A stretch of DNA of 25,537 nucleotides, from positions 1-25,537 of the IMG/VR virus record IMGVR_UViG_3300031787_000751, one strand, 5' to 3'. The notes under the pieces are model-generated. The model was not told where the DNA came from. It did no database searches and was given only the letters and a program-made list of their open reading frames with translations. Each line of letters starts with the position of its first letter. The stretch's first letter is position 1. The translations under genes were made by a program, and so were the position numbers. This DNA is from a virus. This document shows positions 417 through 15,098 of the stretch, piece after piece.

Positions 417-438
417 CGTGTATATCCTGTATTTGATT

Positions 439-514
439 GTTATGACTGTTGGTGAATTCTGCGTGGTAAGGACGGAATACGCCTATGTCCTCATCACGCA
501 GTTATGACTGTCGG
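439..514. repeat. 14-bp direct repeat overlapping a 15-bp hairpin
   Basis: GTTATGACTGTTGG at 439-452 recurs as GTTATGACTGTCGG at 501-514 (13 of 14 identical). Between and partly overlapping them lies an inverted repeat: CTGCGTGGTAAGGAC (459-473) pairs with GTCCTCATCACGCAG (487-501) with one G-U pair and one A-C mismatch around a 13-nt loop. The second direct repeat begins on the last base of the hairpin. This could be an origin iteron/hairpin, a regulator site or an RNA structure upstream of the replication-like gene. Confidence 0.6.
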
Positions 515-621
515 AGCCATCCTGCCGTCGACAACTTTTCACAGGTTTCCCTGCTGTGGTTCGCGCTTCTCGACGATGTGCTGCGCGTTCAGAGGCCCAC
601 TACCCCGGTCTGAATCTGAGT

Positions 622-654
622 CTGTTCTGCGCGTAGTTTCCCCGACCAGAACAG
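622..654. repeat. Perfect 8-bp inverted repeat
   Basis: CTGTTCTG at 622-629 is the exact reverse complement of CAGAACAG at 647-654, with a 17-nt loop. It lies between the direct-repeat region and the TTGACA promoter. It could be a protein-binding dyad or an RNA hairpin; nothing further can be said from sequence alone. Confidence 0.4.
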
Positions 655-670
655 CCGAGGGAGGGAGTGT

Positions 671-699
671 TTGACAGTAGTAGTACACTAGACTACCCT
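671..699 (+). promoter_or_regulatory. Sigma70-like promoter for candidate small RNA
   Basis: A perfect -35 hexamer TTGACA (671-676) is followed after 17 nt by TACCCT (694-699), which matches three of six -10 positions. The predicted start is near 706, immediately before the first of three stem-loops. The weak -10 keeps confidence moderate. Confidence 0.45.
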
Positions 700-705
700 A
701 TCTCC

Positions 706-778
706 ACTCACCTACCCTGTGAGCAAAATAGATCGACCCACTCGATCCGTCAAGCCCCCGAGAGGGGGTTTGTCGTTT
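706..778 (+). ncRNA. Candidate small RNA of about 70 nt (OOP-like position)
   Basis: Downstream of the TTGACA promoter lie three stem-loops: CTCAC (707-711) with GTGAG (719-723); GATCG (731-735) with CGATC (743-747); and the terminator stem 751-759 with 764-772. There is no ORF. The RNA would be read opposite to the regulator gene and to the replication-like gene and would end about 20 nt before the 3' end of the regulator gene. Lambda OOP RNA occupies the equivalent place beside cII/O. Its existence is inferred from promoter plus structure plus terminator. Confidence 0.4.
751..778 (+). terminator. Intrinsic terminator, best oriented on plus strand
   Basis: CAAGCCCCC (751-759), loop GAGA, then GGGGGTTTG (764-772) make a 9-bp stem with one G-U pair, followed by TCGTTT. 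The U-rich side is on the plus strand. On the minus strand the stem is followed by ACGGATCG, so it should act poorly on transcripts coming from the regulator gene. Confidence 0.65.
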
Positions 779-795
779 AAGCCCTCCAGAGTCCA

Positions 796-1023
796 TTACA
801 GCCGCTTACTACGCAGGGGCTGCTCTTGCATCAACTTGCGTATATGCCGAACGCTGTAGCCTGCTGGAAGTTTTACGAAGCCTAGTTGCAGCCGCATCAC
901 CTGAGCAGGCGGCACCACACCTTGGCGAACCCATCGCGAGACAGCCGGAGCCGAAACCCCGAACGCATCCGCGACATCCTTTTTGCGGCCGTTGAAGACC
1001 GAGAGAATGATGTTGATATCCAT
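796..1023 (-). CDS. Cro/YdaS-like helix-turn-helix transcription regulator
   Basis: This is a 75-aa DNA-binding protein, the usual size of phage Cro and YdaS-type regulators. Residues about 12-33 form a helix-turn-helix (GRKKDVADAFGVSAPAVSRW). The tail is basic (QEQPLRSKRL). It is divergent from the early operon and codirectional with the replication-like gene at the left edge, the position of cro in lambdoid phages. No cI-like partner lies between it and the early operon, and only 153 bp separate the two start codons. Its promoter (TTGCCT...TAAGAT) carries an operator-like dyad over the -10 box, suggesting autoregulation. No clear Shine-Dalgarno precedes the ATG and the predicted transcript start lies only 3-4 nt upstream. 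Whether it acts as Cro or as the sole repressor cannot be decided here. Confidence 0.85.
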   Translation of the reverse strand: MDINIILSVFNGRKKDVADAFGVSAPAVSRWVRQGVVPPAQVMRLQLGFVKLPAGYSVRHIRKLMQEQPLRSKRL

Positions 1024-1032
1024 AGCCCGTGC

Positions 1033-1062
1033 ATCTTAACCGCCGTTACGAGAAAAAGGCAA
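1033..1062 (-). promoter_or_regulatory. Promoter of the regulator gene
   Basis: Read on the minus strand, TTGCCT (1062-1057) and TAAGAT (1038-1033) are separated by 18 nt. TAAGAT matches four of six -10 positions and the same hexamer occurs in the promoter at 2008-2035. The predicted start near 1027 leaves a leader of only 3-4 nt before the ATG at 1023. Confidence 0.5.
1036..1049. promoter_or_regulatory. Operator-like dyad, site 1
   Basis: TTAAC-CGCC-GTTAC, a 14-bp dyad with one mismatched pair. It overlaps the -10 box of the regulator promoter. It shares its arms with sites 2 and 3 and its CGCC spacer with site 3. Confidence 0.5.
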
Positions 1063-1110
1063 AGGGAATATGCACGGCAAAATATGTACCTATTTTTTCT
1101 GGGTGGATGG

Positions 1111-1137
1111 TTGCAAGGGCTTAACTTGTGTTAATGT
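1111..1137 (+). promoter_or_regulatory. Early operon promoter (candidate)
   Basis: TTGCAA (1111-1116) lies 15 nt before TAATGT (1132-1137). The spacing is short, and GGTTGC at 1109 would give 17 nt. The -10 region overlaps operator-like site 2. A start near 1144 would leave a leader of about 33 nt before the first early gene. Confidence 0.4.
1121..1134. promoter_or_regulatory. Operator-like dyad, site 2
   Basis: TTAAC-TTGT-GTTAA is a perfect 5-bp inverted repeat with a 4-nt spacer. It lies in the early operon promoter, centred 85 bp (about eight helical turns) from site 1. This is the most symmetric of the three copies. Confidence 0.55.
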
Positions 1138-1176
1138 TCACCCATGCCAGCACGGTGCTGGAACAGGAGAAACAAA

Positions 1177-1485
1177 ATGCAATACGCCAATCACATCGGT
1201 TACAGCGACGTCAACCCGTTCGAGATCATCCGCAAGATTAGCGACAAGACCATCGAGATCCGCGCCATGAATGCCGAGCGCGATCCGAACTGGAAGCCTG
1301 ACTTTGTCGCTGGCGGGTTCTGCGGCACGGTTGTCAATCAGCGTGACCAGCGCTGGATTATCTCCAGCAGCGCGGATGCCCCGGTTGTTCGCATTCGCCT
1401 TGGCAAACAGGGCTGGAAGGATGCCAACGGTCGCCGCTTCCAACTCTCTGATGAGCCGGTCAAGTTTTACGACTACAACTTCTAA
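1177..1485 (+). CDS. Conserved small phage/plasmid protein, unknown function
   Basis: First gene of the early operon, 102 aa. The ATG at 1177 is chosen over an upstream in-frame ATG at 1144 because AGGAGA lies 6 nt before it. The protein starts MQYANHIGYSDVNPFEIIRK and ends PVKFYDYNF. The middle contains WKPDFVAGGFCGTVVNQ and a basic RIRLGKQGWKDANGRRFQL segment. Proteins with this layout (HIGYxDVNPxE...IEIRAM...WKPxF...GGF...FYDxNF) occur as small accessory proteins in phages and plasmids, with no function known to me. It looks soluble, mixed alpha/beta, without a signal peptide or membrane segment. As the first early product it may act on the host, but that is only inference from position. 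Confidence 0.85.
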   Translation: MQYANHIGYSDVNPFEIIRKISDKTIEIRAMNAERDPNWKPDFVAGGFCGTVVNQRDQRWIISSSADAPVVRIRLGKQGWKDANGRRFQLSDEPVKFYDYNF

Positions 1486-1493
1486 TCACTAAC

Positions 1494-1530
1494 GGGCGGG
1501 GACTTCAAACCCGCCCCTCTCACAGGAGAC
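1494..1530 (+). promoter_or_regulatory. GC hairpin plus Shine-Dalgarno block (copy A)
   Basis: GGGCGGG (1494-1500) pairs perfectly with CCCGCCC (1510-1516). The block CCGCCCCTCTCACAGGAGA (1511-1529) follows, placing the AGGAG just before the ATG at 1536. Near-identical blocks occur at 1738-1757 and, on the minus strand, at 21498-21517. The hairpin has no U-tract, so a role in mRNA stability or translation control fits better than termination. Confidence 0.5.
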
Positions 1531-1535
1531 ATCAC

Positions 1536-1736
1536 ATGAGCCGTTACACCTACGTCGAACACCCCGCCCACGAAGTCTTGCAGCCGGTCACGTTTGACTC
1601 GGCCCCGCGCATCACCCAGCAGCAGCGCGTCGATGTCTACGAGGGCGACACGCTGGTTCGCGCCTTCATCCACAACGCATGGCATGACTGCAATGGTCGG
1701 CTGGTGCGCTACACCACAGACGAGGTGGCGGCATAA
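1536..1736 (+). CDS. Small early protein, unknown function
   Basis: A 66-aa ORF with a strong AGGAG 7-8 nt before its ATG. The sequence (MSRYTYVEHPAHEVL...) is acidic to neutral with several aromatic residues and no Cys motif, signal peptide or membrane segment. The pattern of alternating hydrophobic residues (RVDVYEGDTLVRAFIHNAWH) suggests a small beta-rich fold. It is not recognised as any named family. Its place between two other small ORFs with the same upstream SD block suggests co-regulated accessory genes. Confidence 0.75.
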   Translation: MSRYTYVEHPAHEVLQPVTFDSAPRITQQQRVDVYEGDTLVRAFIHNAWHDCNGRLVRYTTDEVAA

Positions 1737-1737
1737 G

Positions 1738-1757
1738 CCGCCCCTCTCCACAGGAGA
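1738..1757 (+). promoter_or_regulatory. Shine-Dalgarno block, copy B
   Basis: CCGCCCCTCTCCACAGGAGA matches copy A at 1511-1529 except for one inserted C, immediately upstream of the ATG at 1763. Here there is no GGGCGGG partner arm, so only the 3' half of the element is present. Confidence 0.45.
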
Positions 1758-1762
1758 TTGAT

Positions 1763-2011
1763 ATGAACAGCCTTATCCGCATCCCTTGGAAGTTTTACAT
1801 GGATCATTACGAGCGCGGCTTGCCAACCCCAGAAGAGGTTCGTACCACTAAGTCGCACGTTTACATCAGCACTGACGATCCGCACCTTAATTCCTTGTGG
1901 TCAGACGCTGAGTTTTATGCCCACAAGTTCGGGCCAGATCTTTGCCCATCTATCAAGGCCAGTGCCAAGGCCACGCTTGCAGCCATTGAAAAGTCTTCAC
2001 AAATTGCTTGA
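1763..2011 (+). CDS. Small early protein, unknown function
   Basis: An 82-aa ORF with AGGAG about 7 nt before its ATG. It contains RIPWKFYMDHYERGLPTPEE near the N-terminus, an acidic ISTDDPHLNSLWSDAEFYAHKFG segment, and a C-terminal helix (ASAKATLAAIEKS). The DDPHLNSLWSDAEFYA stretch reads as an amphipathic helix. The protein is not recognised as a known family. Its stop codon (2009-2011) overlaps the -35 box of the next promoter, so this gene may be separable from the genes downstream in timing or amount. Confidence 0.75.
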   Translation: MNSLIRIPWKFYMDHYERGLPTPEEVRTTKSHVYISTDDPHLNSLWSDAEFYAHKFGPDLCPSIKASAKATLAAIEKSSQIA

Positions 2012-2035
2012 CTCTTAATTCACCGCCGTTAAGAT
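2008..2035 (+). promoter_or_regulatory. Internal early promoter with operator-like site 3
   Basis: TTGACT (2008-2013) and TAAGAT (2030-2035) are separated by 16 nt, the best sigma70-type match in the window. A dyad TTCAC-CGCC-GTTAA (2019-2032) overlaps the -10 box exactly as site 1 does for the regulator promoter, so the same regulator probably controls it. It would drive the recombination genes downstream. Confidence 0.6.
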
Positions 2036-2062: not shown

Positions 2063-2254
2063 ATGAACGACTTCGTATGCCGCGAGTGCAAAGTAGAAGA
2101 GCCAGTCTGCGACGATTACTGCGTCGAGTGCGAGATCAAGTTCTTCCGCGCTAACCCCGACGAGCAGATGGATCTCATCCTGCAAGTCGAGAGCGACCCG
2201 GATTCGTTCGCCGCTTGGATTCCCGTTGTCAAGGCTTTGCAGGAGGCTGCATGA
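2063..2254 (+). CDS. Small zinc-ribbon-like protein
   Basis: A 63-aa protein with AGGAG before the ATG. Two CxxC knuckles are visible, C6-C9 and C20-C23, with an extra C16, in MNDFVCRECKVEEPVCDDYC followed by VEC. This spacing fits a small zinc-binding ribbon. The second half is acidic and helical (DEQMDLILQVESDPDSFAAW). It may bind nucleic acid or a host protein, but no specific function is recognised. It is the first gene after the promoter at 2008-2035, and its stop overlaps the next start (ATGA). Confidence 0.8.
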   Translation: MNDFVCRECKVEEPVCDDYCVECEIKFFRANPDEQMDLILQVESDPDSFAAWIPVVKALQEAA

Positions 2255-2546: not shown

Positions 2547-2709
2547 AATGCCGTGGGGTAACGACGACCAGTCGTGGTGGCAACAGATGGACGAAGAACT
2601 ACAGCAACAGGAGGAGGCGGAGCGCATCGCGAAGTGTGATGCGGCTCTGGCCGAACTCCGAGCGATCATCGAAGACGAACTAATGAAAATCTACAGGAGC
2701 ATGAACTGA
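2536..2709 (+). CDS. Small acidic helical protein
   Basis: A 57-aa ORF starting inside the end of the preceding gene (11-nt overlap) with AGGAGG about 9 nt before the ATG. It is rich in E, D and Q (MRDEMPWGNDDQSWWQQMDE at the start), then a charged helix with heptad-like spacing through ERIAKC and ALAELRAIIEDELMK, so a short coiled coil is likely. Its TGA shares its last base with the ATG of the DUF1071 gene at 2709, implying coupled translation. No family is recognised. Confidence 0.65.
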   Translation: MRDEMPWGNDDQSWWQQMDEELQQQEEAERIAKCDAALAELRAIIEDELMKIYRSMN

Positions 2710-3338
2710 TGTCTGATCTTTTGCGAATCAATGTGAACGACCATCTCGAAAAGAAGAATGGTCTTTCGTACTTGTCGTGGGCGTGGGCGTGGGCTGAGGT
2801 ATTGAAACTTGATCCGAGCGCGACATGGGAGGCGGTCGAGTACAACGGCATGCCAGCCTGTTTCCTGCCCGACCAGAGTGCGATGGTGAAAGTACGAGTG
2901 ACGATCAAAGATCACTCGAAGACCTGCGTGTTGCCGGTAATGAATCACCGCAACCAAGCGATCAAGAACCCAGACGCATTCGCGATCAACACCGCTATCG
3001 TCCGATGCCTCGTGAAGTGCATCGCGTTGTTCGGTCTCGGCTTGTACGTGTATTCAGGTGAAGACAGCCCGGAGGGTAATGTGGAAGGAATAACGGTAGA
3101 TCCGAGAGGCGATCTCGGACAGGGAGTTGACGAAGCAAAGCGCGACCAGTTCGTCGCCAAGTTCCGCACGGCATTCGATCTCGATGCGGAAGAGCCTGTC
3201 ATCGCGCAGGCCGTGTTGGAGGTACACCGAGAGATCAACAGCGACCACGATCTGTACATCGCCGTTGCGGACGCGATGCTGCCGAAGGAGCGCAGCGCAA
3301 TTAAGGCTTATCTGAAGATGGCAAAGGAGCAGAAGTAA
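2709..3338 (+). CDS. Single-strand annealing protein, DUF1071 family (Rad52-like)
   Basis: This 209-aa protein has the family signature near its N-terminus: NVNDHLEKKNGLSYLSWAWA followed by WAEV, then a beta-rich core with CFLPDQSAMVKVRVTIKDHS and PVMNHRNQAI, then AFAINTAIVRCLVKCIALFG and LGLYVYSGED. DUF1071 proteins belong to the phage single-strand annealing proteins with a Rad52-like fold. They coat ssDNA and pair complementary strands during phage recombination and replication. The C-terminal part (from about residue 125) is a more variable helical tail. The gene starts on the last base of the previous stop and its own stop TAA overlaps the ATG of the next gene, a possible ssDNA-binding protein, which fits a recombination pair. 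No exonuclease gene is visible beside it. Confidence 0.85.
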   Translation: MSDLLRINVNDHLEKKNGLSYLSWAWAWAEVLKLDPSATWEAVEYNGMPACFLPDQSAMVKVRVTIKDHSKTCVLPVMNHRNQAIKNPDAFAINTAIVRCLVKCIALFGLGLYVYSGEDSPEGNVEGITVDPRGDLGQGVDEAKRDQFVAKFRTAFDLDAEEPVIAQAVLEVHREINSDHDLYIAVADAMLPKERSAIKAYLKMAKEQK

Positions 3339-3592
3339 TGCAGTACGACAACAACAACCGTGGGGCTTTATTCAAAAACGACAAGCAGGGGAATGAGAAA
3401 CGCCCCGACTACAAGGGCGACCTAAATGTCGAGGGCGTCGAGTACCGAGTTTCGGCGTGGATCAAGAAGTCGAAGGCAGGGATGAACTTTATGAGCCTGT
3501 CGATTGAGCAGAAGGACGGGCAGAAGTCGAAGTCGCCGCCGGTACAAGTGCCGGTCCAAGACTTTGTCGACGACGAACTGCCGCCGTTCTGA
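3338..3592 (+). CDS. DUF736-like small protein with SSB-type acidic tip
   Basis: An 84-aa protein beginning MQYDNNNRGALFKNDKQGNE, then PDYKGDLNVEGVEYRVSAWI and KKSKAGMNFMSLSIEQK. The pattern NRGALFKNDK..PDYxG.....G.EY..SaWiKkSkaGmnFmSL is a phage/plasmid family resembling DUF736. The C-terminus is DFVDDELPPF, an acidic stretch ending in a hydrophobic Pro-Phe, as in bacterial SSB tails (DDDIPF) and similar to T7 gp2.5 in logic. With its position directly after the annealing protein this suggests a small ssDNA-binding or replisome-contacting protein. That function is inference; the family match is by eye. Translation is coupled to the preceding gene by TAATG. Confidence 0.75.
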   Translation: MQYDNNNRGALFKNDKQGNEKRPDYKGDLNVEGVEYRVSAWIKKSKAGMNFMSLSIEQKDGQKSKSPPVQVPVQDFVDDELPPF

Positions 3593-3610: not shown

Positions 3611-4015
3611 ATGCAACGAATATTTCCTAAGGGAACTCAACCAGACCAGATCGCTTCGGCGGTCTCGGTCTTGGTTCGGGAACTCGACCCGACAATCAGT
3701 TGGAAGGTGGTCATCGAGGCGTTCAAGCCTAAGCGCACAGACGCCCAAAATCGGTTCCTCTTTGGGGTGGTATATCCCAGCATCCTAGAGGGCGGCGGAG
3801 AGGCTCTCCGTGGCTGGAATGCGATGGACCTGCATACCTTCTTCCTCGGCGAACACTTCGGATGGGAGGTCGTCGAGGGTTTTGGCAAGAAGCGCCACAA
3901 GCCTCTGCGTCGGTCGAGCAAACTGACCAAACAAGAATTCAGCGACTATCTCGCATTCATCGAGGCTCGGTGTGCGGAGATGGGCATACACATACCGGAA
4001 CCCAGTTATGCGTAG
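3611..4015 (+). CDS. ninB: NinB-family recombination protein
   Basis: A 134-aa protein close to the length of lambda NinB (146 aa). The family pattern is visible: a central KRTDAQNRFLFGVVYPSI, WNAMDLHTFFLGEHFGWE, then SSKLTKQEFSDYLAFIEARC and MGIHIPEP at the end. NinB (Orf) binds ssDNA and helps exchange or replace SSB during phage recombination, bypassing host RecFOR. It follows the annealing protein and the SSB-like gene, so these three probably act together. The ATG at 3611 follows the hairpin described at 3593-3610. Its 3' end overlaps the next gene by 8 nt. Confidence 0.8.
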   Translation: MQRIFPKGTQPDQIASAVSVLVRELDPTISWKVVIEAFKPKRTDAQNRFLFGVVYPSILEGGGEALRGWNAMDLHTFFLGEHFGWEVVEGFGKKRHKPLRRSSKLTKQEFSDYLAFIEARCAEMGIHIPEPSYA

Positions 4016-4463
4016 GAAAGACATACCAGTCGAGTTGACTGCGATGGAGATGTATCAGGCCGGGATTGTCGGGATTGCTCGACGTATCGACAGCATGCGT
4101 CGAGGGCTGAGCAACACTACCGGCGTGACGAACAGTTGGAACATTGACATCGAAGGTGCGCTTGGTGAGATGGCCGTGGCGAAGGCGTTGAACCTATACG
4201 CTGGCCTGCCGATCAACAACTACAAGGATGCCGACATCGGGCAATATCACGTACGCGCCACAGAACTCGACGACGGGTGTCTGATCGTACGGCCAGAAGA
4301 CAAACTCGATTGTATGTACATTCTGGTCACAGGCCGGAATGGCAAGTACGTCGTTCGTGGCCAGATCGAAGGATACGACGCGACAGACAAGCGGTTCTGG
4401 CGCAGCCCCAACGGACGGCCGGGTGCGTGGTTCGTCCCACAGTCAGCGCTGATCGGCATATGA
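4008..4463 (+). CDS. Phage protein with PD-(D/E)XK-like pattern
   Basis: The start at ATG 4008, overlapping the ninB stop, gives 151 aa; an upstream in-frame ATG at 3972 lies deeper in ninB and is less likely. After an N-terminal helical region, the protein shows GALGEMAVAKALNLYAGLPI (E54), KDADIGQYHVRAT (D76, V82-R83) and CLIVRPEDKLDCMYILVTG. A Glu helix followed by D...xVR and a beta-strand pair with YILVTG resembles the core of PD-(D/E)XK nucleases, with Arg where Lys is usual. The family is found in phage genomes as hypothetical proteins. Nuclease activity is inferred and the atypical Arg weakens it. It sits between NinB and the DUF1364 gene, both nucleic-acid proteins. Confidence 0.7.
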   Translation: MRRKDIPVELTAMEMYQAGIVGIARRIDSMRRGLSNTTGVTNSWNIDIEGALGEMAVAKALNLYAGLPINNYKDADIGQYHVRATELDDGCLIVRPEDKLDCMYILVTGRNGKYVVRGQIEGYDATDKRFWRSPNGRPGAWFVPQSALIGI

Positions 4464-4744
4464 ACCTACGCAAAGAAGCCCGTGGTCGCGGGTGCATGGT
4501 CCGTCTTGAAGGGATCTGCAATCACAACTCAGAGACGGTTGTGCTTTGTCATTACAGGCTGTCTGGCGTATCTGGAATGTCCCTAAAATCAGACGACGTT
4601 ATTGGCAGTTGGGCGTGTAGCGCATGCCACGACGCCATCGACCGCAGATCGCACACCGATCTCGACAGAGACTACGTGAAGTTGGCGCACCTAGAAGGCA
4701 TGGTGCGAACCATCGCGCAGTTGCGTCGAGAGGGCAAGATATGA
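4460..4744 (+). CDS. DUF1364 protein, YbcO-like putative nuclease
   Basis: A 94-aa protein starting at ATG 4460, overlapping the previous stop (ATGA). The DUF1364 layout is clear: MNLRKEARGRGCMVRLEGIC (C12, C20), NSETVVLCHYRLSGVSGMSL (H31), then GSWACSACHDAIDRR (C53, C56, H57) and a C-terminal helix with MVRTIAQLRREGK. The four Cys can bind zinc and the His residues fit a small His-Me-finger-type nuclease, as proposed for E. coli YbcO from the DLP12 prophage. In lambdoid prophages such genes lie beside nin-type recombination genes, as here. The catalytic role is family knowledge and inference, not shown by this sequence alone. Confidence 0.8.
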   Translation: MNLRKEARGRGCMVRLEGICNHNSETVVLCHYRLSGVSGMSLKSDDVIGSWACSACHDAIDRRSHTDLDRDYVKLAHLEGMVRTIAQLRREGKI

Positions 4745-5289
4745 CGTTCCTTGTAGATACACCGTATACACCGGCTTTTGTCCGAAACGAATTCCTGCAC
4801 GATCATCAGGAAGGGCATGGAGACTTCAGCGCTTGCGTTGTGTTCGGCTTTAGATCTGAGCCAGCCCGAGTACCCATGTTTCAGATCATGCTGGATAACG
4901 GAGCGCAGTGGGCAAGGATTCCAATCCATGCGCTCTGCTCAAAGCCCTGCGACCCGATACCGCTTGATATCGCCTGCTGGTGGGATTCGTTCAGTAGACA
5001 TTGCACCGTGCATCAATTCGACTTCTTGATCGGCCACCGTGTCGAAGGGCTTGGGCGCGATAAGGTGATGCGACCCGGTAAGTATCTGTTCACGGTCGAT
5101 TGGTGCAACGGCGGGTGGTCAGAGATCAGCGACCAACACAAGAACCACCACGTCATCGAACTTGATGCAGGCCCGTGGATTGCGTATCCCAATAACAGGC
5201 TTTACTGGAAAGACTCTAGTTGGATCAAAAAGCCTGTCACCCCAATGCGATCACCGTCGCAAAGTTATAGTGTCGAAGGCTTGCCGTGA
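4741..5289 (+). CDS. Conserved phage protein, unknown function
   Basis: A 182-aa ORF taken from ATG 4741, which overlaps the preceding stop (ATGA); an in-frame ATG further upstream lies deep inside the previous gene. The protein begins MTFLVDTPYTPAFVRNEFLH and has ACVVFGFRSEPARVPMFQIM, ARIPIHALCSKPCDPIPLDI and YLFTVDWCNGGWSEISDQHK. It is rich in aromatic residues, His and Cys (ALCSKPCD, DIACWWDSF), looks soluble and beta-rich, and ends in a Ser/Pro-rich tail. I know similar sequences only as uncharacterised phage proteins. Position among DNA-processing genes is its only functional hint. Confidence 0.8.
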   Translation: MTFLVDTPYTPAFVRNEFLHDHQEGHGDFSACVVFGFRSEPARVPMFQIMLDNGAQWARIPIHALCSKPCDPIPLDIACWWDSFSRHCTVHQFDFLIGHRVEGLGRDKVMRPGKYLFTVDWCNGGWSEISDQHKNHHVIELDAGPWIAYPNNRLYWKDSSWIKKPVTPMRSPSQSYSVEGLP

Positions 5290-7892: not shown

Positions 7893-10800
7893 TCACTGGG
7901 GTGGTGCGCCGCCGACCAAGGCGACGGGGTTCTGGGTGCGACCCTCGCTCATAGCGATCACACCATCGATGGTTCGATTGATCTGCGCGGACGGCAGGTG
8001 CAGAGCGATACCTGCCACGTTCACACCAGCACGAACGAATGCGCGGTCGAGTTCGTCCTGATTCGCTTGCTGTGCAAACTTGTTCAACTCGTTGAAGAAG
8101 CGCAGGCCAGCAGGACCGTTGTAGCCGAGGCCACCGGAAGTCGACAGACCGAACATGATCTGCGCTGCACCAGCGGCTTCACGTACGCCGACCATCGTGC
8201 CGAACAAGAACGACACCTGCTCTGCGGCTAACTTCTTTGCGATCTCTTCGTCGTCGTCCTCGTCGCCGATCTTGAATGCTTCTTTAATCAGCATTCCGAA
8301 TACGGCAGGAACCGAGTAAATCAGCAGCAGATCTGTTGCGAGTCGCGCTACTTGTGCAAGGCTGCGCGGGTTCGTGCCACGGATTCGCTCGACGCCAAGG
8401 TTGTACGCCGTGTTGAAGTAGCCGTAGAACACCGTGAAGATTTTGACGAACTCGGAGCCGCGCTGGATTGCAGCCAGATCTTTCATCTGACCACCGCCTT
8501 GCGATGCTAGTACGGCCTGATCCGCAATCTGGATTGACGTGTCTTCGTCGTACCCTTCGGTCTGCGCCTTCTGGTACGCGCCCCACCATGTCGGGATATC
8601 AACCGTCATCTGGATCGCAGTCATCGGCAGGAACATCGCACCGTCAATAAACTGACGGGACTCTGTCTTGCCGCGCAAACTGTTTCGCAGATCGTTCAAC
8701 TCTCGGTTCTGCGTACGCTTGCGGTTACGCATGAACGAAGACTTCTCCAGCACCGTCGTTCCCAACTTGACTGGATTCTTTGCGAATGCCGCTACGCCCT
8801 GTGCGATGTACTTCGGACCGACACGCACAATCGACTGCGACAAGCCAAGCGGCTGCATAAGGGCGTTGACAATATTAAATCCGAGGCCGGCCACCATCGA
8901 TCCGATACGGATGTGACGCAGCGGTTTGTCGAGTGCATGCGGATTGTTCTGCTCACCCGCTGCAATCGCTTCGACAGCAGTACGCAACTGCCGTGTCATC
9001 TCTGCGCCGTAACGCTCACGGATCGTGCCGTCAACAGCGCGAAGGATTCGGTTGGCATCGACCAGCCATTCCTTGTAGGCAAGGTAATGCACCACGTCTG
9101 TTAGGCCGTTGAAGGTTGCGTCCATCGTCAGCAAGATCGGACGACCCTTCACTTCCTCAGCGCGACCCTTCACAAAGTTGCTGCGAACTGTGGCCGCAGT
9201 ACGCGCACCACGCAGTTGCCGCTTGGCCTCTTCTTCAGCAGCCATCTGCTCAGTACGCAGGCTCTCAGCAGGATCGTACACGGCAGGGTAATAGCCGCCG
9301 CGATACGTGCCGAACTTTGTTTGGATAGGCACAGCCTCGATCCACTCAGGTTCTTTGCCCATCAGGCTGCGCTCAACCCGTGCAATCTCGGGACGCAGGC
9401 TTTCGAACGTATCCCACACGCCCTGCACAAAATCCCACTCCTCCTTTGACAGAGAGTCGAGGACTTGCTGCACACCGTCTGTCGTCCAGTTGCGACCATC
9501 TAGCAATCGTTGACGGTTGCCGTCGTTGCCCCAGTTCAGCGCAACAGCCAGACGCGCTTCCTGATTTAGGCTCACGCCGATACGTGGGAAGAACTGTCCC
9601 TTGCTGAATGCGCGTTCTTTCGGCAATCCCTTTAGCAACTGCGCGAGGCGTGTAGTCAGTTCGGCTTGCTTGTCTGCTTCCCAGTTACCGCGCTCGTTCG
9701 CAGTACGCACCAGCGCATCCCACAGCGGACCGCCGTCTTTGAATCCGTCGATCTCATACACGATGCTAGCCATCTTGCGATGCGCTGCCGTGAATCCTTT
9801 GAATGCACGAACGAGAATACTGCCGAGATCCGTACGGGTACGATTGTCAGCAACTCGGCCACGGTCGTTTGCGATGACAGACTCGCGGATCTCTGCCATC
9901 AAGGCATCAAACTCGCGCTTATCTTTGGCGAGTAACAGTTTGCGCTTCAGTCTGCCGAAGTGTTCTATCTGACGGATACTGTCTACCAGACCCGCAAACT
10001 CTTCGACGGTCAGGTTTTTGTAGTTGACCGCTTGCGCTTCGTTGACGATATGCGCCGGGAGATCCGGCTCAATGCCGAGTTCCTTTTGGTTCTCGATGAA
10101 CTGCGCCAGAGCAGACCGTCGGTCGAGTTCGCGCAGCGTCTTCTGCCGCAGGTCGAATCGCTCCAGTATCCGGTCGATCTGATCGAGATACTCTGGATCG
10201 ATGTTTTTGCGAGTGCCTTCCTTTGTGAACTTCTTCAGGTAGGCAAGGCCGCTCTTCACGTTGTCGAGAGCCTCTCCCGCAAAACGTGCAGCGTAGTTGT
10301 TGACTAACTGGTTGCGCTTCTCCAGCGCAGCCTCAGCCAACTTGCCGCGCTTCACGGCACGGTCAGCGTTACGAGCAGCACGAGCAGCGCTGCCGCTGTA
10401 CTGGCTGACGCGAACGTCGCGGATCTTCAGGCGGTTCACCACCGAACGAGCGAATGCCTTTGCGGCACCCGGCAACGTACGCTGTCGTCGACCACCGACA
10501 ACCACACTCGCAGCCATCGCCTGCTCAAGGGCAGACAGTTCCGTCTCGACCATCCGTGTCCGGGCGTCGTTGGCAAGTGCAGCGTTGACCGCATTGTTGC
10601 GACCCTCTGCTGTCGACAGGTTCGAGAAGTCACGCAGCATCCGAGCGTCGGTCTCGGCATTGATCGCTTCGTCCGGGGTCGGCGATGCGAGGATGGCGCG
10701 GATCAACTCGGAACCGCTGGAGAACCCGAAGGTCTCCGCAACCACGTCCGGGTGTTCGCCGCTGACTCCCTTCTTGATATCGGCAGGGCCAGCCACCATT

Positions 10801-13800
10801 CTCAGTTTCCGCAACTGGGCGACAACTTCCTTGCTGGCCGTGACCTGCTCGACGTACTCGGGATCGAACCGGCTTGTCGGCTCCGCATTCGGGTCGTCAG
10901 TGAGGGGGCCAGTCAGGTATGACCATGCCCGGTAGACCGGCTGAGACATGATCTCCGGCCGTACCGCAGAGCGTACACTGCGCCGGGTTTCCTTCTCTTC
11001 CTTTTGCAGTTTCGTCAATAACCGACTACGAGCGTTTTCCAGCCACTTCATGTCTTGGATCGACTTGGCGGCTAGGTCGCTAATCGCTTGCTGCGTAGCG
11101 GCCTCTCCTTGCGCCTGATAGGCATTCCAGTCGACACCAAACTTCTGGGCTTCGGCTTCGGTCTTGAACAGCATGCCCATAGACTGGGCGGCTTCCCTTG
11201 CTTCGATCTCCTCCTGCGTGGCCAACAGGCGGTCGAACACAGCGCGAACCTCGTCGTTGAGTTCGGCTTGCATCGCCTTACCGAACGACACCTCGCGACC
11301 GAAGGTGGCCTTGGCGCGTTCCATCAACGACCGATAGACAGACATCAGCCACGAGCGGAAACGGTCGAACATCGGTTGCAGTTCGGTCGATGGCGCTTTG
11401 CCTTCTGCAAGGTACACCTCGAAACTACGGGCGAACCGTTCGTGACTTGGGCGCTGCTCGTCGACCGACATGTTGAGCCAAGTGTCGAACTGGTTGGTCT
11501 CAGGCGTACCCTTCACGCCGAACCAATTCAGGATCGTCTCGGCGTCTTTGCGTACGTCAGCAGGGGCATCCGGCCGAGAGGCCAGATTGACCAGCATGTG
11601 CAGGTAGAAGTGACCGCTCTCGTGCAGGAACGTCGAAAGATCCTGCGCCTTGGTCAGGCGGATTGTAAGTTCTTCGGGACTGAAAGATCCTCGGACTTCT
11701 TGCCCTTCGCCTTGGAAAAGCCGGGGCGCAACTCCTGCGGCACCAACTCCATCACCTCTGCCGACTCCGGCACCCCTTCCGGGTACGCCAGTCTCAGGTA
11801 ATTGTTCAGCGTAAGAGGAATCCGCTGCCGCTTCATTAGTTCCAGCAGGGGATCTAACCCAAGCGGGATCGGCAATTCCGCCAACCAGTTCCGCGATTTG
11901 GTTTCTTGCTTCGGTGACATCGAGTTTTCCCTCAGCGACATTCTGCCATATCTGGTTAACTGCCGCCTTGTTTTTGGCAGTCTTCTGTTCCGGGCGGAAC
12001 ATGCCGCGCACGGCCTCCCATGTAATGGACTGCATCTCACGGGGCAGCAGGCCGACCTGCTCAGCCGCACGGCGGTAAGCCTCGGCATAAATCGAGTACG
12101 TGCCGTTCAACCCGGTAATCGCGCTGTTGGCTGGTCCGGGGATAGCAGGCTCTGTAACCTCGCCGGTCTTCTTGTCTTTGACCGCAGCCTTGCCGCTGCC
12201 GAAGTTGTGCGAGACTTCGATGTCGTTCGAACCCAACGGACGCAGCAGCGCAGCAGCCACCGCATGTGTGTCGATGGTTACGTCGCCGCCAGAGTACGGA
12301 GCGATGATGTTGTTGTAGAACGAGCGCACCTTGTGGTTCGCGCCAATAACCTTTGAGATCTCGTCCGGCGTTTTGGCCTTTAGAATCTCCAGCGTCTTTG
12401 CAATCGTGGCGAATGACTGCCATCGCAGGGCGACGGGCTGGCCACCTTTGGTCTGGTCAAACTCGTTCGTGAATGCGCCTTCCGGCGTGATGATACGTGC
12501 AACCTGCGGGTTGTTCGCTTCGTCCCATGCGCGAATCCACACAGCCATATCGAGCAACGAGCGGTCCCAGTTCTCAGCGTCAAACAGATCGCGCAGAGTC
12601 TTACCTTCAAGGCGCGAGATCTCGTTGACCGGAACATACCCAAGTTCTTTGGATAACTTGCCGCCCCAGTCACGCGAACGAACAAGGTCGGACATCTTGC
12701 TGTCCCACGCCACGTCCGAGTTGTTGATGACGGCTTCAAGAATGCGCTCGGCAAGCGAGACGTTCTGGAACCAATCCTTCTGCGGACTAGTCGCGGCGAT
12801 AACACCGGCTACCTGTTGCGGCTCAATACCGAACCGAGCAGCCCATCGGTGTGCGATGCGGTTACCGCCCACGTACCACATGCGCGAACGATTGCGGTAT
12901 TCAGGCTTCCAGTTGTTGTGCAGCCATACCAGATTCTCGACCATGTCAGAGATCATCTTCTCGACACGAGTCTCAGGATCTCCGGTAAGCCCAACGAAGT
13001 TTGGGTACGCCGACATCAACTCGACGTTCTTCGCTAACTTGGCAGGCTCACGTTTTGCGGTATCCAGATCAGGCTGCAATCGCTCGTCAGCCAACGGATC
13101 TTCCGTCACCTTCACCGAAGTCGGCAGGCGCGGAGATACGCGCATTCCAGTCAACGAGTTCTCTTGATCTTGATCGGTTTCTTCAGACACGCCGACTTGT
13201 TGGAACTCCGCAGCAGCAGGAAGCGCAAGCAACTGATCAGGGGTGTATTCGTTCAATGCTTCAGGCGTAGTGATTTGGACCGGCGCTGCACCCGGCTCCG
13301 TAACCGCAAAGATGCGCTCTCCAGCGTTCAGCCTGTTACGAGCGTCGGCAACATCTGCAACACGAACACCTGAATCTTGCAAAGCCTGACCGATATCAAC
13401 TTGTTCAAACTCACCACGGCCTGCGCCGAGAACACGCACTCGCTGTTCACCGAACAGTTTGTCTGCGGTCGTCCCCATGCGCTGCGCCATGACGTGATAG
13501 AACGTCGAGGTCAGCAGGGCGTAGTTGTCAGCGACGTCTTGCGTCACGCGACCCGTAGCCATCAGTTCCTGAGCGACGGTATCGCGCACCATCGTTCGTG
13601 CTTCCTGCGCGGCAGACTCGTTCTCGCTCTGCGCCAGTACAGTCTCGACCTCGGCACGGAGTTGTTCGCCGCGAGTGCTAACGTATTCCTCTGCCTCCTT
13701 CTGGCTCATGCCGTTCGGATCGACGCGCATGTCAGGCAGCAGCGGTGACAGTTCCTGATTGAACCTGCCCATTACCTCAGCGGTCGGGATGCGGATCATG

Positions 13801-15098
13801 GTTCCCGCGCTGGCCTGCTCTAACTGAGCCGCTACGGTCGGCGACTGCCCAGCCAATACCTCGGCAAGGCCAGACTCCATAAGCGTCTGAGAATCGATAT
13901 ACAGCGACTCTACGGGCGAATCCTGCGTGACCGTCTGCAAGAATCCCTCGAATGTGTCTACGTCGCGCTCTCGCACCACAGATGCCTTGGCTAAGGTATC
14001 TAGTTCACGCAACAGATCGGCAGTCTCAGTGGCTTGCTGCGAGTACGTGTCGCGCTCCAGCAGCATGTTGACGCCCTTGGTAACAGCGACGTTTCCGCCG
14101 ACACCGACAATCGTTGCTACCAGCGTTTGAACCGCAGCAGCAGGGCGCTCGGCAAGATACTCTTTAAAGGGCTTCTCAGGGTTAAGGTTTGCCCATTCGT
14201 TCAGATCTTGCAGGGCGGTCGCGGCTTGTTCACCGGGAATCTCCAGCAGGATCTGCTTGCCGAGAATGTTTCGAAACGATTCATCAACCTTTAGGTCTTT
14301 GAATAACTGAAAGACTGGAGCCTTTTCAGTCCAGTATTCAATTAAACCTTGCAAAGTCGCGTACGGAGCAGCCTGTGCATAATCCAACTGTTCACGAGCC
14401 TTGACGTATTCCGCGCCTGTAACTGACGCAGTCATCAAATTTAGCGCATACTTTGGATTGCGCGTAGCAAGGCCAGCGGCCAATGCAGGCAACTGCTGCC
14501 CAATCGTTTTTAAGCCATCGTAGATGCCGCCAGAGATCGGGCCACTAATGGCCTGCTCACCAGCCACAAATTCAGCAAACCCTTCTTGCGCTTTAGCCTG
14601 TTCAGCAAAGAACTGTTCAGCAGCGCCGCCAGTCGAGAATAGGGTTGCGGTCGGACTCAGCGCAGCAATGCCAGACTTGTTGACGTAATCACCAATAGTT
14701 CGCAGGGAGCCTGCCGCAAGAGACGCAGTACCAAGGATGCCCCCAACTAAACTAGGCGCACCAGAGAGAATTGCACGAGGGACACTTAGCGTCTTTTCAA
14801 TCAGGCTCATGTTCTCGACATCGTCCTGCACGGATGCAGCGACAACGTCAGGCTGTGAGTTCAGCCATTGCTTCAGAGCCTTGGTCGATTGCACCGTGCC
14901 GGATGCACGAGTCAGTTTCTCTTGCTGTGCAAGGTCTGGGTCAGGCTCAAACGGAGTCAGCGCAGGAGGGATGTTGTTGGCACGAGCCTGCTTGACCGAT
15001 TGCGCGGCCAAGTCAGGATTCGCGTCAGAAACAGAAAGCAGTTTGGTTGAGACATCCTGATCATTCTGTTTGCTTAGCCATTCCTGCAATGTCGGCAT
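7893..15098 (-). CDS. Giant polyvalent internal virion protein (2401 aa, zincin motif)
   Basis: This 2401-aa ORF sits where T7 has gp16, the largest ejected core protein (1318 aa), but no lytic transglycosylase domain is recognised. Visible parts: hydrophobic Gly/Ala-rich stretches at about 110-135 and 325-350; a region at about 708-1036 with AGVIAATSPQKDW (771-776), VTIDTHAVAAAL (D943-H945) and a QSITWEAVRGMF end, resembling the DUF7178 phage family; a Gly-rich linker at about 1100-1126; a zinc-metalloprotease motif HESGH (H1159, E1160, H1163) followed by HERFARSFEVYLAEGKAPS; a long charged helical stretch to about 1900; and hydrophobic segments near 1990-2020 and 2245-2275. This mosaic is typical of large polyvalent proteins that are packaged and ejected with the genome. 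The start overlaps the previous stop (TAATG). Protease activity is likely; target unknown. Confidence 0.85.
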   Translation of the reverse strand: MPTLQEWLSKQNDQDVSTKLLSVSDANPDLAAQSVKQARANNIPPALTPFEPDPDLAQQEKLTRASGTVQSTKALKQWLNSQPDVVAASVQDDVENMSLIEKTLSVPRAILSGAPSLVGGILGTASLAAGSLRTIGDYVNKSGIAALSPTATLFSTGGAAEQFFAEQAKAQEGFAEFVAGEQAISGPISGGIYDGLKTIGQQLPALAAGLATRNPKYALNLMTASVTGAEYVKAREQLDYAQAAPYATLQGLIEYWTEKAPVFQLFKDLKVDESFRNILGKQILLEIPGEQAATALQDLNEWANLNPEKPFKEYLAERPAAAVQTLVATIVGVGGNVAVTKGVNMLLERDTYSQQATETADLLRELDTLAKASVVRERDVDTFEGFLQTVTQDSPVESLYIDSQTLMESGLAEVLAGQSPTVAAQLEQASAGTMIRIPTAEVMGRFNQELSPLLPDMRVDPNGMSQKEAEEYVSTRGEQLRAEVETVLAQSENESAAQEARTMVRDTVAQELMATGRVTQDVADNYALLTSTFYHVMAQRMGTTADKLFGEQRVRVLGAGRGEFEQVDIGQALQDSGVRVADVADARNRLNAGERIFAVTEPGAAPVQITTPEALNEYTPDQLLALPAAAEFQQVGVSEETDQDQENSLTGMRVSPRLPTSVKVTEDPLADERLQPDLDTAKREPAKLAKNVELMSAYPNFVGLTGDPETRVEKMISDMVENLVWLHNNWKPEYRNRSRMWYVGGNRIAHRWAARFGIEPQQVAGVIAATSPQKDWFQNVSLAERILEAVINNSDVAWDSKMSDLVRSRDWGGKLSKELGYVPVNEISRLEGKTLRDLFDAENWDRSLLDMAVWIRAWDEANNPQVARIITPEGAFTNEFDQTKGGQPVALRWQSFATIAKTLEILKAKTPDEISKVIGANHKVRSFYNNIIAPYSGGDVTIDTHAVAAALLRPLGSNDIEVSHNFGSGKAAVKDKKTGEVTEPAIPGPANSAITGLNGTYSIYAEAYRRAAEQVGLLPREMQSITWEAVRGMFRPEQKTAKNKAAVNQIWQNVAEGKLDVTEARNQIAELVGGIADPAWVRSPAGTNEAAADSSYAEQLPETGVPGRGAGVGRGDGVGAAGVAPRLFQGEGQEVRGSFSPEELTIRLTKAQDLSTFLHESGHFYLHMLVNLASRPDAPADVRKDAETILNWFGVKGTPETNQFDTWLNMSVDEQRPSHERFARSFEVYLAEGKAPSTELQPMFDRFRSWLMSVYRSLMERAKATFGREVSFGKAMQAELNDEVRAVFDRLLATQEEIEAREAAQSMGMLFKTEAEAQKFGVDWNAYQAQGEAATQQAISDLAAKSIQDMKWLENARSRLLTKLQKEEKETRRSVRSAVRPEIMSQPVYRAWSYLTGPLTDDPNAEPTSRFDPEYVEQVTASKEVVAQLRKLRMVAGPADIKKGVSGEHPDVVAETFGFSSGSELIRAILASPTPDEAINAETDARMLRDFSNLSTAEGRNNAVNAALANDARTRMVETELSALEQAMAASVVVGGRRQRTLPGAAKAFARSVVNRLKIRDVRVSQYSGSAARAARNADRAVKRGKLAEAALEKRNQLVNNYAARFAGEALDNVKSGLAYLKKFTKEGTRKNIDPEYLDQIDRILERFDLRQKTLRELDRRSALAQFIENQKELGIEPDLPAHIVNEAQAVNYKNLTVEEFAGLVDSIRQIEHFGRLKRKLLLAKDKREFDALMAEIRESVIANDRGRVADNRTRTDLGSILVRAFKGFTAAHRKMASIVYEIDGFKDGGPLWDALVRTANERGNWEADKQAELTTRLAQLLKGLPKERAFSKGQFFPRIGVSLNQEARLAVALNWGNDGNRQRLLDGRNWTTDGVQQVLDSLSKEEWDFVQGVWDTFESLRPEIARVERSLMGKEPEWIEAVPIQTKFGTYRGGYYPAVYDPAESLRTEQMAAEEEAKRQLRGARTAATVRSNFVKGRAEEVKGRPILLTMDATFNGLTDVVHYLAYKEWLVDANRILRAVDGTIRERYGAEMTRQLRTAVEAIAAGEQNNPHALDKPLRHIRIGSMVAGLGFNIVNALMQPLGLSQSIVRVGPKYIAQGVAAFAKNPVKLGTTVLEKSSFMRNRKRTQNRELNDLRNSLRGKTESRQFIDGAMFLPMTAIQMTVDIPTWWGAYQKAQTEGYDEDTSIQIADQAVLASQGGGQMKDLAAIQRGSEFVKIFTVFYGYFNTAYNLGVERIRGTNPRSLAQVARLATDLLLIYSVPAVFGMLIKEAFKIGDEDDDEEIAKKLAAEQVSFLFGTMVGVREAAGAAQIMFGLSTSGGLGYNGPAGLRFFNELNKFAQQANQDELDRAFVRAGVNVAGIALHLPSAQINRTIDGVIAMSEGRTQNPVALVGGAPPQ

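Follow-up and report, generated by a model that had tools for sequence, protein, structure and literature searches.

A Cro-type regulator and operator dyads that vary with its recognition helix: probable control of early genes in a freshwater podovirus

Three matched dyads lie beside the gene of a 75-aa Cro-type helix-turn-helix (HTH) regulator in a stretch of viral DNA, and we asked what they do there. The window (25,537 nt, the whole stretch of IMG/VR record IMGVR_UViG_3300031787_000751 that was analysed) covers part of the genome of a freshwater bacterial virus, a small podovirus. The regulator (796-1023, minus strand; recognition helix SAPAVSRW) is divergent from the early genes. An initial annotation, made from the DNA letters alone, had described three matched dyads with a 4-nt spacing, and their coordinates and sequences proved correct. 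The first, Oa (1036-1049, TTAAC-CGCC-GTTAC), lies between the -35 and -10 boxes of the regulator promoter. The second, Ob (1121-1134, TTAAC-TTGT-GTTAA), is a perfect 10/10 palindrome that overlaps the first early promoter at its -10 box. The third, Oc (2019-2032, TTCAC-CGCC-GTTAA), occupies the spacer and the -10 box of a second early promoter. All three sites fall within a promoter spacer and overlap the -10 box, the latter as had been claimed.

The regulator promoter (1033-1062, minus strand) consists of a -35 box TTGCCT (1062-1057), an 18-bp spacer and a -10 box TAAGAT (1038-1033), a layout shared by relatives. The first early promoter (1111-1137, plus strand; TTGCAA at 1111-1116, 15-bp spacer, TAATGT at about 1132-1137) is weak in the window; the same position in relatives usually carries a good TTGACT/TTGACA-N16 promoter. 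The second, internal early promoter (2008-2035, plus strand; TTGACT at 2008-2013, 16-bp spacer, TAAGAT at 2030-2035) is kept in relatives, and this TTGACT-N16-TAAGAT promoter was the only one of the three to pass a generic promoter scan of the window, the calls for the other two resting on conservation rather than on that scan. As the regulator ATG follows 9 nt beyond the -10 box (6 nt in some relatives) and no Shine-Dalgarno sequence precedes it, the regulator mRNA is probably leaderless. Between Oa and Ob, at about 1066-1100, relatives conserve a second element (ATGCA ... TATTTT), which forms a direct repeat (AATATGCAC/AATATGTAC) in the window and is partly deleted in one relative (L008).

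Are such dyads more frequent than chance would produce? Scanning the window with TTNAC-N4-GTTA gave four matches at three places, because the perfect palindrome, a single site, scores on both strands. In 100 shuffled sequences the mean was 0.43 matches, and none reached four. When two mismatches to TTAAC-N4-GTTAA were allowed, the count was ordinary (6 versus 4.2 expected in the window), indicating that the signal resides in the exact arms. Across eight related records (277 kb) the same pattern occurred at 25 places, 24 of which were the three homologous positions. The initial annotation had proposed a scan of this kind and had named frequent occurrence in coding sequence and poor conservation in relatives as arguing against operators; the sites turned out to be rare elsewhere and to recur at the same three positions.

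To describe this conservation, we compared 24 regulator-bearing contigs gathered by protein and pattern searches. Measured from the regulator ATG, all 24 had Oa at 9-13 bp and Ob at 83-99 bp. Oc, at 402-996 bp, completed the triad in 22; it was not seen in L005 or L048, both of which end in or near the gene cassette that follows Ob. In the alignment of the Oa-Ob region the operator arms were the best-conserved blocks. Ob had the highest symmetry of the three sites in most relatives, and we predict it to be the strongest. The Oa-Ob distance of 85 bp from centre to centre is correct for the window, but a meaning of it as eight helical turns is not supported, since the spacing is unconserved: 85-87 bp in most relatives, 70 bp in G003, and 32 and 44-45 bp in other lineages. 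DNA looping or phasing between the two sites was rejected on the same grounds. An IMG/VR scan with a promoter plus operator pattern returned 27 stretches, about 21 of them from this regulator family; the six outside it (L059, L064-L066, L073 and L075) were taken as unrelated. In one of these (L073, at about 1907), an apparently unrelated phage, an XRE-type regulator adjoins a dyad with identical arms (TTAAC-N4-GTTAA) on a TTGACA promoter. In the contig L053 (IMGVR_UViG_3300008110_001149) the regulator frame stops at 43 aa, just past the recognition helix, and all three operators are intact, reflecting either an assembly error or a real loss.

If the regulator binds these sites, operator sequence would be expected to follow its recognition helix. 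To avoid circularity, we assembled loci without using operator or regulator, anchoring them instead on a structured-RNA motif that adjoins the regulator gene. Among the matches listed, this operator-blind set held 115 distinct loci, 92 with a regulator homologue and 23 without. Two or more TTAAC-N4-GTTAA-type sites (no more than one of the ten arm bases differing, and within 900 bp) were present in 29 of the 92 loci and in none of the 23. Within the 92, such sites accompanied 29 of the 30 regulators whose helix is PAVSRW and none of the 62 others (Fisher 4e-23, a value that is indicative only and overstates independence, because the loci share ancestry). A de novo operator search that combined 1024 arms with five spacings recovered TTAAC-N4-GTTAA for the S[AQR]PAVSRW group (19/19 versus 0/47 others) and a different dyad, GTTTA-N6-TAAAC, for the TKG/TDG group (14/19 versus 0 others). 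The latter is the operator of sister TKGAVSQW regulators (L179, L256, L257 and others); over all GA[VI]SQW-helix loci it was found in 14 of 20, with no such motif in the remaining six, against 0 of 72 others. In five smaller helix groups the search yielded no convincing operator; recognition-helix types seen among the sisters further include SRASVNRW, TPPAVLRW, SRAAVQKW and TRAYVSRW. By these comparisons, operator and recognition helix clearly change together. As the site and the repressor vary together in about 90 related viruses, we infer that the pair very probably controls the early genes of this virus.

The same data bear on two other explanations of the dyads. A host transcription factor might bind them, the adjoining regulator being incidental, and the overlap of the sites with promoters does resemble that of host operators. 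However, the operator follows the helix of the phage regulator (29/30 versus 0/62) and paired sites are missing from all 23 loci where no regulator homologue was found, so that we regard a host factor as very improbable. Nor were there paired sites upstream of homologues of the first early gene (encoding 102 aa) in other contexts, which also led us to reject a linkage of the operators to that gene instead of the regulator. Alternatively, three -10 regions might simply look alike by chance, as TTAAGAT-like promoter sequence containing no operators. The right arm GTTA shares bases with the -10 box at all sites, and this alone would conserve part of the motif. Yet the left arm TTAAC, which lies in the promoter spacer, is equally conserved, and sister phages with similar promoters and another helix do not have it; chance likeness is, in our judgement, the least probable of the explanations considered.

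Together, the best explanation, to which we assign a probability of roughly 78%, is that the three dyads are operators through which the 75-aa regulator represses its own gene and two early promoters. In the proposed mechanism, a regulator dimer would bind each TTAAC-N4-GTTAA site and, by covering the spacer and the -10 box, exclude RNA polymerase. At Oa the regulator would repress its own gene; at Ob, the promoter that serves a swappable small-gene cassette; and at Oc, a second promoter that may serve as the recombination operon's own start, independent of the cassette upstream. As the regulator accumulates, it would shut off itself and both early promoters. On the simplest reading, Oc would give the conserved operon a regulated start while cassettes come and go.

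What would such a circuit be for? Its description in the initial annotation combined control of regulator, early and recombination genes by three operators, which the sites, their conservation and the tracking of the helix support, with the term 'switch', which in its lysis-lysogeny sense is not supported. Tyrosine integrase (Phage_integrase) had no match in 11 records, and neither serine recombinase (Resolvase) nor a CI/S24 repressor had one in nine; each of the nine contained a single HTH_3-like match, namely the regulator itself. These absences are provisional, as all records are unclosed metagenomic fragments without end repeats and an integrase or CI could lie outside them. Given that the searches found neither an integrase nor a CI-type repressor, we consider it most likely that the circuit serves to shut off early genes, in a phage that is lytic or at least has no integrase, and does not act as a lysis-lysogeny switch. 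An unlikely alternative is that the same small repressor forms a one-protein immunity system, maintaining an integrase-free (plasmid-like) prophage or providing superinfection immunity. In its favour, the regulator gene diverges from the early operon, and its mRNA is probably leaderless, as is lambda cI mRNA from PRM; Ob, as the most perfect site, would hold the early genes off tightest; and an O-like replication gene adjoins. Against this lysogenic function stand the lack of integrase, resolvase and CI in the records and of any prophage relative in 84,980 bacterial and archaeal genomes, a scan in which only close relatives are detectable. Moreover, HTVC010P-related freshwater phages have been predicted to be lytic because they lack an integrase (PMC6811365).

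The regulator showed significant sequence similarity to P22 Cro-type repressors. A profile of ten regulators searched against the PDB identified P22 Cro (1rzs, E=1.4e-5) as the nearest solved relative, followed by 5w8y (2.3e-4) and 3bd1 (2.2e-3); by name, the closest solved proteins are P22 Cro, XPH1 and Xfaso1 Cro. The regulator did not reach the Pfam gathering scores of P22_Cro (PF14549; 20.8 versus 30.2 bits) or YdaS (PF15943; 20.4 versus 30 bits). It is, as far as profiles tell, related to P22_Cro and no curated member of that Pfam family. Its predicted structure comprises five helices (pLDDT 83), and several of the top Foldseek matches of this model are Cro proteins, all weak (E above 0.5). 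The regulator itself weakly matches DicC. We take it for a P22-Cro-like HTH protein that is probably all-helical. Among annotated phages we found no similar regulator apart from one 25-residue match.

The window system resembles those of P22 Cro, DicC and N15 Cro in its small HTH protein and in short dyads overlapping divergent promoters, and differs in that no CI partner was found. The operators also differ: N15 and phiKO2 have the motif TA-N10-TA (PMC4997575), compared with TTAAC-N4-GTTAA in the window. Moreover, phiKO2 Cro binds only OR3 and was suggested not to repress itself (PMC4997575), whereas Oa sits on the regulator's own promoter. With the lambda CI/Cro switch (OR/OL) the window shares repressor and early promoters that diverge and each carry operators, and another operator on a further promoter. 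In contrast to lambda, where there are two repressors and operators come in triplets, it has one repressor, operators that stand singly and a third operator inside the early operon, and no integrase was found. The major capsid protein (43% identical to that of HTVC010P, 50% to that of MW202898) and the small podovirus genome ally the window with HTVC010P-type podoviruses of Pelagibacter and their freshwater relatives, from which its early region differs by carrying Sak/SSB/NinB genes and a Cro regulator. MW202898, MW202691 and HTVC010P were considered as a source of known regulation and set aside, their early regions being too distant. In the window the genes for tail and internal virion proteins are on the minus strand, and a single open frame of 2401 aa (7893-15098, minus strand) lies among the structural genes.

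Between Ob and Oc lies the variable early cassette (1177-2011, plus strand), which in the window encodes proteins of 102 aa (1177-1485; 113 aa from 1144 in the ORF list), 66 aa (1536-1736) and 82 aa (1763-2011). Over 22 contigs this slot was filled from 14 families of small ORFs, with one to three genes per contig, and some families are common to different regulator lineages. A PHROG search with nine cassette ORFs and the CxxC gene downstream matched none of known function, and an antirepressor in the cassette was rejected on that basis; the small genes are candidates for anti-host or anti-defence functions. The operator pair marks an exchangeable early-gene slot and hence a place to seek such functions. 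The first gene after Oc encodes a 63-aa CxxC protein (2063-2254, plus strand), and a gene of this type directly follows Oc in most relatives, L051 and L052 excepted. Further downstream on the plus strand are genes for a Sak annealing protein (2709-3338), SSB (3338-3592), NinB/Orf (3611-4015) and HNH/YbcO (4277-4744). A 221-aa protein (4624-5289, plus strand) matches PHROG 3704 (annotated as ferredoxin, moron/host takeover; E=9.5e-42). It may be, with the chances about even, that in a large clade of uncultivated freshwater podoviruses one Cro-type repressor without CI is the sole early regulator, helix and operator have co-diversified into many natural specificity pairs, and the two early operators bracket a hypervariable cassette. 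An abundant type of aquatic phage would then be shown to employ a Cro-like repressor that has no CI partner.

The window itself is, judged by DNA identity, a natural recombinant that combines one lineage's regulator with another's operators. For the regulator gene, identity is 87.5% with L007 and 58% with L044; across Oa-Ob the order is reversed, with 66% for L007 and 95% for L044, and the junction lies near Oa. Such a swap is the expected outcome if the regulators of both lineages recognise the same site. Dozens of natural pairs of regulator and operator, set in an unvarying promoter arrangement, make it possible to test directly how HTH specificity evolves; at least two pairs are decoded (PAVSRW with TTAAC-N4-GTTAA and GA[VI]SQW with GTTTA-N6-TAAAC). 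Diversification of helix and operator into many such pairs, if true, would provide a ready-made library for the Cro-DNA recognition code.

The structured RNA on which the locus set was anchored is itself an unannotated candidate (430-778, plus strand) between the regulator and the nearby, divergent O-like replication gene, with 18 bp between its end and the stop codon of the regulator. Covarying stems lie in its last 110 bases. Of 76 distinct sequences, 51 kept a stem of 5 bp or more in the hairpin before the terminator (shuffled mean 10.8, maximum 15) and 41 had CCC in the loop of that hairpin (shuffled mean 2.3); its stem took 31 distinct sequences. The loop of the terminator (GTCAAGCCCCCGNRAGGGGGTTTGTCGTTT) varies mostly as GNRA. 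Alifold scores by themselves do not separate the strands; GNRA loops and G-U pairs indicate the plus strand. An Rfam search with this RNA gave no family match. Among IMG/VR matches, the core motif was present in at least 120 stretches and the terminator in at least 100, and the structured RNA occurs in over 100 phage contigs.
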